Positions 1,298-60,745 of a DNA stretch of 60,876 bases are shown here, piece after piece (the stretch's first letter is position 1; each line of letters begins with the position of its first letter). The position numbers were made by a program, and so were the translations under genes. Under the pieces are notes generated by a model. The model saw only the letters and a program-made list of their open reading frames with translations, did not search any database and was not told the origin of the DNA. This stretch comes from Candidatus Woesearchaeota archaeon (GTDB lineage Archaea > Nanobdellota > Nanobdellia > Woesearchaeales > JACPJR01). Location: NCBI GenBank assembly GCA_016187565.1, contig JACPJR010000008.1, forward strand, positions 1 through 60,876, written 5' to 3'.

Positions 1298-1891
1298 TCA
1301 CTTGAATAGATATGCTTTTGTGACAGAATCCATTTTTGCATCTGCCATTTGCTTTAGGTATTCACCAAGAGTCCCGTCAATAGCGACAAGGTTAGCACTG
1401 CTTTCTACTAATCCTAAAACATGCCTTAATAACACTGCTCCTCGTTCACAAAAAGCCTCAGTAACTTGATCTTCTAGTCCAGCATCAGTCCTAAACCTTG
1501 CTGCTCCCCAGCAGGATTCAATTTGTCTTCCTGCACAACCAGAATGAAATCCAAGGGACTTATCAACTGATTGGTACCACAAAACCGCTGTTGCAAGCAT
1601 TTCTGCTCGCTCTTGTGGTTCATGCCCTTCTAAGCCATAGGTACCCAACCATTCATACGCATGACCAATCAGGTACCGTAAGCTAACTTCAACTCCAACC
1701 CTTTCACCAAACTTCCCTTGAGTTGTCTGTAATTCATTAAGATAAAAATTAATGCGGCCTTGATAATTTCCTTTCCTAACCTGGGTATTTCTTTGCGCTT
1801 CCATGTTCTGCCAGTACGTTGTCTCAGCAGGATCAAATCTCAAAACTGCTCTCAATGTTTCAAGTTGTTCTATCGTTTTTTCTCGTGTCAT
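1298..1891 (-). CDS. Hypothetical soluble protein (197 aa)
   Basis: The start is placed at 1891 because GGAGG lies 6 nt before this ATG; an in-frame upstream ATG at 1924 has no such signal. The protein is helical, with alternating aromatic and small residues (YLIGHAYEWLGTYGLEGHE, AVLWYQSVDKSLGF) that suggest a helical-repeat, possibly TPR-like, fold. No catalytic motif is visible and no family is recognised. Arg (14) exceeds Lys (8) by hand count, unlike most neighbours. It is divergent from the TrmB-family gene at 2063 and shares its 170-bp promoter region, so the regulator may control it. Confidence 0.65.
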   Translation of the reverse strand: MTREKTIEQLETLRAVLRFDPAETTYWQNMEAQRNTQVRKGNYQGRINFYLNELQTTQGKFGERVGVEVSLRYLIGHAYEWLGTYGLEGHEPQERAEMLATAVLWYQSVDKSLGFHSGCAGRQIESCWGAARFRTDAGLEDQVTEAFCERGAVLLRHVLGLVESSANLVAIDGTLGEYLKQMADAKMDSVTKAYLFK

Positions 1892-60246: not shown

Positions 60247-60320
60247 GGAAGGTATCCTGCGGAACCTTCCGAATTAAACGGACCCGGAGGCAACGGAAAT
60301 CAACGATTTCCTGGCCTCCG
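60247..60320. ncRNA. GC-rich structured patch beside tRNA-Arg (two stable hairpins)
   Basis: Hairpin 1 pairs GGAAGGT (60247-60253) with ACCTTCC (60264-60270). Hairpin 2 pairs CGGAGGC with GCCTCCG (60285-60320), extended by GGAAATC/GATTTCC around an AAC loop. Between and in the second hairpin lies ACGGACCCGGAGG (60278-60290), an exact 13-bp copy of the tRNA-Arg 3' end region (60337-60349). The local G+C content is far above the surroundings. It may be the trailer of the tRNA transcript, a small RNA or an integration scar; expression is unproved. Confidence 0.4.
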
Positions 60321-60337
60321 TTTCCTTCACAAAGTTA

Positions 60338-60443
60338 CGGACCCGGAGGGATTTGAACCCTCGATCTACAGCTCGCCTCGAGAGCAAGTACGAGACCTCT
60401 CTCGTAGAAGGCTGTCGCCCTATCCAGGCTAGGCTACGGGTCC
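60338..60443 (-). tRNA. tRNA-Arg (anticodon TCT) with a 31-nt intron
   Basis: Acceptor arms GGACCCG/CGGGTCC pair over 7 bp with discriminator G. The T arm is GAGGG TTCAAAT CCCTC, and the anticodon stem is ACAGC/GCTGT. Between those stem strands lie 38 nt; the first six, CTTCTA, give loop positions 32-37 with anticodon TCT, and the last A is position 38. The 31 nt between fit an archaeal intron at the canonical 37/38 site, and its CGAGAG/CTCTCG arms can form the central helix of a bulge-helix-bulge. CCA is not encoded. Confidence 0.85.
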
Positions 60444-60524
60444 ATGGGGAAGAGTGACCAGAGACGTTATTTAAACCTTTCCACAATGTTTATAAATTAT
60501 CTCTTATTCTTCAACGCGTTCAAA

Positions 60525-60633
60525 GCGCGGGTAGCCAAGCGGCTAAGGCGATCGGCTGCAGACCGATTATTCAAGGGTTCGAGAATGTTGTGTGGAACTT
60601 TTCATGCAATTAACGAAAATCCCTTCCCGCGCT
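60525..60633 (+). tRNA. tRNA-Cys (anticodon GCA) with a 36-nt insertion in the T loop
   Basis: The acceptor GCGCGGG/CCCGCGC pairs over 7 bp, the anticodon arm is ATCGG CTGCAGA CCGAT (anticodon GCA), and the T stem is AAGGG/CCCTT. The T loop should have 7 nt but has 43: TTCGA, then a stretch ending in AAT. The extra 36 nt must be an intron at a non-canonical T-loop site, or an insertion that disables the gene. Discriminator T fits tRNA-Cys. TTTATAAAT lies about 33 nt upstream, and TTTTTT (60633-60638) terminates the gene. CCA is not encoded. Confidence 0.75.
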
Positions 60634-60745
60634 TTTTTAGTTTCTACAAATCTATACTTTTTTGTATCGCTCGGTTTAGAACAGATTTCTCGGTCATGAA
60701 ACAGTACAAAAAATAAAAAGAAATAACTCCGTTATTGTAAATAAT

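Follow-up and report, generated by a model that had tools for sequence, protein, structure and literature searches.

The tRNA-Cys(GCA) gene of Candidatus Woesearchaeota archaeon is very probably a functional, expressed gene with a non-canonical archaeal intron of the bulge-helix-bulge (BHB) type between tRNA positions 59 and 60. It lies at 60525-60633 on the plus strand of the window, by which we mean the whole stretch of 60,876 nucleotides that was analysed. The kind of intron is already known, as is its position, but the setting is new: it occurs in a lineage for which no description was found and beside a type of splicing endonuclease (EndA) that is said not to support it. We found no relevant paper on tRNA introns in Woesearchaeota or DPANN, subscription papers and GtRNAdb being outside the scope of the search. 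The intron is neither isolated nor the mark of a dead gene, since related introns are found in other tRNAs of the same genome and in many genomes of the order.

The tRNA-Cys gene and its T-loop insertion

Read directly, the gene is a tRNA-Cys(GCA) with a 36-nt insertion inside the T loop. The 7-bp acceptor stem, D arm, anticodon stem-loop, T stem (AAGGG/CCCTT) and discriminator U73 are all intact, in agreement with the initial annotation, which had described unbroken helices and 36 extra nucleotides in the T loop. Exon 1 (60525-60583, tRNA positions 1-59), delimited by the cloverleaf fold and by ARAGORN after splicing, is 86-93% identical to its best relatives and carries the anticodon GCA at 60558-60560, which ARAGORN also reports. 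The 5' strand of the T stem (60573-60577) pairs with 60621-60625 in the minimum free energy (MFE) fold. The 36 nt at 60584-60619 are assigned as the intron by comparison with intronless orthologues and with the tRNA-Cys genes of two relatives (G080 and G165) that have an intron at the same site. Exon 2 (60620-60633), with positions 60-72 and U73 (60633), is defined by complementarity in the T and acceptor stems. Upstream there is a TATA-box-like TTTATAAAT at 60489-60497, and a T run at 60633-60638, which overlaps U73, is a possible terminator; these two elements were recognised from sequence only.

ARAGORN finds no tRNA at 60525-60633 in the unspliced gene, which scores only 17 bits with the Rfam tRNA model. 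Removal of the 36 nt gives a complete tRNA, and only then does ARAGORN call tRNA-Cys(GCA).

The initial annotation had raised the matter of another tRNA-Cys in the genome. None was detected there by a low-stringency DNA search or by a search with the Rfam tRNA covariance model, both at E <= 10. The genome (1.94 Mb) consists of 35 contigs and has a completeness of 96.7%, which leaves some room for a second copy in a gap. The initial annotation was also right that the partner tRNA-Arg has a canonical intron: this divergent tRNA-Arg(UCU) lies at 60338-60443 on the minus strand (Rfam tRNA, 56.6 bits) and has a 31-nt anticodon-loop intron according to ARAGORN. Directly downstream of it on its strand is an inverted repeat, GGAGGCAACGGAAATC...GATTTCCTGGCCTCC, at 60286-60325, possibly a terminator or a small RNA hairpin; its sole Rfam match is far under the cut-off of that family.

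Splice motif and junction

The splice structure is the same in the MFE folds of the complete 109-mer and of the isolated T arm. Next to the T stem AAGGG:CCCUU, a 3-nt bulge AAU lies on the 3' side. Beyond it, a helix of four pairs (UUCG:CGAA) leads to a 5x3 internal loop, and this in turn to an intron hairpin of 10 bp (60587-60610). Against dinucleotide shuffles, z is -3.3 for the unspliced 109-mer and -2.75 for the T arm alone. The central helix joins exon and intron; it is formed by the T-loop UUCG (tRNA positions 54-57, at 60578-60581) and the CGAA of the intron (60614-60617), and covariation supports both strands. The 3-nt bulge AA^U (60618-60620) is the predicted 3' splice site, with the cut after 60619, and the introns of relatives also point to it. 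The gene thus has two features of a BHB, the exon/intron helix of four pairs and the 3-nt bulge at the 3' splice site, whereas its 5' side is the 5x3 internal loop instead of the second bulge of a canonical 3-4-3 motif. Therefore, the intron is a relaxed and not a canonical member of the BHB class.

This changes the initial annotation in part. It had reported that no full BHB could be built at the T-loop site, and the 5' side is indeed relaxed, but the central helix and the 3' bulge do exist. It had also concluded that a relaxed motif, another mechanism or a dead gene was needed; the relaxed motif stands, and because a splice motif exists, neither a new mechanism nor a dead gene is required.

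In BHB introns, cleavage follows the second base in each of the two bulges, which places the junction at 59/60 and gives the spliced T loop UUCGAGU. Among 25 parsed intronless tRNA-Cys orthologues of the order, the loop is UUCGAGU in 19 and UUCGAAU in three. The tRNA-Cys of G080 has an intron at the same site with a perfect 3-4-3 BHB. In the tRNA-Cys of G165 (L121, from 1501, plus strand), an intron of about 80 nt at the same site has a 3-bp central helix, UUC:GAA. Since this last intron lacks CGAA, the intron class is wider than the pattern used in the survey described below.

Related introns in the same genome

T-loop inserts are also present in three further tRNAs of this genome, those for Lys, Asp and Ala. 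A loose scan for T-loop introns in the genome gave mostly chance matches, and only those with a 7-bp acceptor stem and a recognisable splice signal were kept. The tRNA-Lys(UUU) (L020) has a 30-nt insert with a weaker motif, UUC:GAA, of three pairs, which is absent from the unconstrained MFE fold. The tRNA-Asp(GUC) (L012, minus strand) has a 17-nt T-loop insert ending in CGAAAA and also a D-arm intron, and it is a clean tRNA-Asp once both introns are taken out by hand. The tRNA-Ala(UGC) (L287) has a 39-nt insert ending in UGAAGG in addition to an anticodon-loop intron; its T loop has UUCA and its intron UGAA, and the unconstrained MFE fold favours another pairing.

D-arm introns were also observed in this genome, in tRNA-Gln(CUG) (L017, 1501-1587, minus strand), in the tRNA-Asp(GUC) on L012 (minus strand) and probably in a tRNA-Ala (L281, about 1501-1590, minus strand). 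Some of these tRNAs hold a second intron, and many of the genes with D-arm introns are overlooked or misnamed by general tRNA finders.

T-loop introns across the order

We surveyed 352 genomes of the order with the pattern GGTTCGA-N22..52-CGAARRTCC; the host's own family holds one genome. Matches were present in 101 of the 352, at about 150 places compared with about 42 for a reversed-pattern control, as counted by hand. ARAGORN called a tRNA across the junction after intron removal in 127 of 148 distinct fetched matches. These 127 tRNAs span about 19 isotype calls, and ARAGORN found only a handful of the genes in unspliced form. The two bases preceding U were AG in 105 of the introns, AA in 20 and GG in two, under a pattern that fixes RR and U in advance. 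Because the pattern presets the 3' motif, the uniformity of CGAA is not independent evidence. The independent evidence for the intron class is the tRNA context, the inner helix and covariation.

As for the inner helix, offsets (5' minus 3') of 2 or 3 are far commoner than in shuffled introns; a helix start of 3/1, for instance, occurs 27 times versus 2.9 in the shuffled set. All four central pairs appear in the MFE fold of 116 of the 127 isolated T arms, and a strict 3-4-3 BHB is found in 15 of the 127 introns.

Covariation is seen at tRNA position 57, which is G or A. Among 150 TTCA matches listed and counted by hand, TGAA was found in 139 and CGAA in 11; TTCG with TGAA, which leaves a G-U pair, accounted for 54 matches. 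For genomes G000-G123 the counts were 37 for TTCG/CGAA, 16 for TTCG/TGAA, 11 for TTCA/CGAA and 139 for TTCA/TGAA (Fisher p = 2e-18, an indicative value because the raw counts hold chance matches and related genomes). Among the fetched TTCA cases, 23 of 30 splice to tRNAs, and all 23 have TGAA. Judged from these counts, the use of UGAA in place of CGAA in UUCA tRNAs is a compensatory change.

The combined pattern also points to such introns in other orders of the class (for example in G355, G367, G389 and G405), where they were recognised by eye on the basis of the signal. The initial annotation had regarded T-arm introns as known mainly from Thermoproteales-type Crenarchaeota. This restriction does not hold, as by the pattern survey they are also common in this woesearchaeotal order and occur in its sister orders.

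The splicing machinery

The genome has one RtcB ligase gene and one EndA gene, which encodes 177 aa (L021, 1474-2007, minus strand) and gives one PF01974 match. The EndA is 84% identical to the EndA of a Woesearchaeota metagenome-assembled genome (MAG), and almost all of its remaining top matches come from MAGs of Woesearchaeota or Nanoarchaeota. A PF01974 match is present in 316 of the 352 genomes of the order and is nearly always single; the same search found no second EndA-like gene or partner subunit in this genome and essentially none across the order. One short subunit per genome (about 177 aa) is, as far as sequence can tell, an alpha4-like gene content, and gene content together with length points to a homotetramer.

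The fold of the enzyme and its loop content are settled by sequence alignment with solved structures. No insertion at the CSL position is present in this EndA or in 79 relatives aligned with the Sulfolobus tokodaii enzyme; the CSL segment has 14-15 residues in Woesearchaeota versus 25 in S. tokodaii. The catalytic Tyr, His and Lys are conserved. Trp174 is invariant in 80 of 80 Woesearchaeota sequences, is Tyr in Methanocaldococcus jannaschii, and aligns with Trp384 of ARMAN-2 through the motif YYEIxW. Trp at this residue is common to crenarchaeal and ARMAN enzymes. Position 40 is Lys or Arg in 72 of 82 aligned rows. In ARMAN-2, Trp384 clamps the first bulged base in an Arg-Trp sandwich (PMC12397907).

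Alternative explanations

The evidence above has to be weighed against other readings of the insertion. It is very improbable that the gene is a pseudogene disrupted by a chance insertion while the real tRNA-Cys falls in a gap of the assembly. The incompleteness of the assembly leaves room for a missing copy, but every stem and U73 are intact, the insertion brings a splice signal that is common to more than 100 other tRNAs, and inserts are found in the T loops of three further tRNAs of the same genome. Less credible still is that the insertion arose in sequencing or assembly, or that this end of the contig is chimeric: only 243 bases separate the gene from the end, but about 100 independent genomes have insertions of this kind at the same tRNA position, accompanied by compensatory changes, and this recurrence effectively refutes the reading. 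Both readings were considered and rejected. Also rejected were a group I intron, which could not be as short as 36 nt, and a permuted or split arrangement of the gene, since the two exons follow each other in the normal order on the same strand.

Two further alternatives accept a real intron and differ from ours in its boundaries or its nuclease. If the junction were at 58/59 or a neighbouring site, the product would have UUCGAAU and not UUCGAGU. A shift of one base still gives a 7-nt loop, and UUCGAAU does occur in a few of the intronless orthologues; however, the usual BHB rule gives 59/60 and UUCGAGU prevails among those orthologues, and we consider a shifted junction improbable. Rather less remote, but still unlikely, is the idea that a different nuclease cleaves these introns, or that EndA does so with the help of a divergent partner subunit that escaped detection. 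Alpha4 and alpha'2 enzymes are described as cutting canonical BHB motifs only (PMC4033280; PMC6379350), and efficient cleavage of relaxed motifs is credited only to (alpha-beta)2 and epsilon2 enzymes (PMC6379350), types which bear CSL or ASL loops (PMC6379350; PMC12397907). The non-canonical 5' side of the tRNA-Cys intron therefore counts against our own explanation and in favour of a partner or another nuclease, and Nanoarchaeum equitans does have a beta subunit. On the other side, genomes of the order have essentially a single PF01974 gene each. A sequence search with this EndA still recovers the Nanoarchaeum beta subunit at 4e-15, and a partner of that kind would thus have been expected to turn up.

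Proposed splicing and spread of the introns

Our preferred explanation, a functional tRNA-Cys with a relaxed BHB intron at 59/60, can be stated as a sequence of steps. In the pre-tRNA, the T-loop UUCG would pair with the CGAA near the 3' end of the intron, stacked on the T stem. In this fold the 3' splice site would lie in the 3-nt bulge A-A^U and the 5' splice site in a relaxed internal loop, A-G^A-A-U. EndA, the single enzyme of alpha4 type, would then cut within both, and RtcB would join the exons to give the normal 7-nt T loop UUCGAGU. Trp174, together with the strict 3' bulge, may let a plain homotetramer accept the relaxed 5' side. The analysis itself establishes the sequence, its predicted structure, the covariation, the distribution and the single EndA and RtcB genes, whereas transcription, cleavage, ligation and the use of the relaxed 5' side by EndA are predictions. 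Tentatively, and rating it somewhat short of probable, we propose more generally that Woesearchaeota evolved an additional way of recognising introns broadly, in which an alpha4 homotetramer, with a crenarchaeal-type Trp at the bulge but with neither CSL/ASL nor a partner, removes relaxed T-loop introns across the tRNA set.

The sequence UUCR is nearly invariant in tRNA T loops. For this reason a single type of intron, with YGAA-AR^U, can suit nearly every tRNA, and this fit may explain the spread of the introns over isotypes. Individual genomes have similar introns in several isotypes, such as the His, Gly, Cys and Leu tRNAs of G157. A shared intron core, ATAAGG...CCTTATCAACC, was observed across isotypes in G157 (L179-L182), in G160 and G161 (L185-L188) and in G169 (L195). 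T-loop introns with this core were also seen in a second order (G355 and G389), and introns with this core do not have the usual inner-helix register. The presence of a shared core in different isotypes and in a second order suggests intron transposition.

If the proposal of a broad alpha4 enzyme is true, relaxed-motif introns need not go together with enzymes of the (alpha-beta)2 or epsilon2 type, and spreading introns would have a universal docking site in the near-invariant UUCR. Relaxed T-loop introns are numerous in this DPANN order, whose only EndA is alpha4-like. This makes the published rule of intron and EndA co-evolution, which links non-canonical introns to (alpha-beta)2 or epsilon2 enzymes bearing extra loops, directly testable with one small protein and short RNAs. 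In addition, essential tRNAs are missed by tRNA finders that are not built for T-loop introns, as ARAGORN misses this tRNA-Cys.

Comparison with known systems

Position 59/60 is listed among the known sites of non-canonical tRNA introns (PMC4090602). T-arm introns at this site and at others in the arm are recorded from Crenarchaeota, Thaumarchaeota and Nanoarchaeum, according to the account of Marck and Grosjean 2003 and Sugahara et al. 2008 in a review (PMC4090602). The introns described here resemble them in the T-loop site, in a BHB-like helix made of exon 1 and intron strands and in the 7-nt loop left after joining. They differ in belonging to Woesearchaeota, a lineage absent from the papers that we found, in the stereotyped UUCR/YGAA pairing and AR^U over about 19 isotypes, and in the accompanying EndA, which is alpha4-like and not (alpha-beta)2 or epsilon2.

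The enzyme itself resembles the alpha4 EndA of M. jannaschii (PDB 1A79): it is a single subunit of similar length encoded by one gene per genome, it keeps the catalytic Tyr, His and Lys, and it has no Crenarchaea- or ARMAN-specific loop. Unlike that enzyme, it has Trp instead of Tyr at residue 174 and, in most sequences, Lys or Arg at position 40, and its apparent substrates include relaxed T-loop introns. With the epsilon2 EndA of ARMAN-2 it shares the C-terminal YYEIxW motif, in which Trp174 is aligned to Trp384. It differs from both epsilon2 and (alpha-beta)2 enzymes, as it lacks the extra loop and no partner subunit was found. Finally, the occurrence of very similar introns across isotypes of one genome recalls the transposed tRNA introns of Thermoproteales (Fujishima et al. 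2010, as cited in PMC4090602), whereas in Woesearchaeota the site is the T loop and a second order has related introns.
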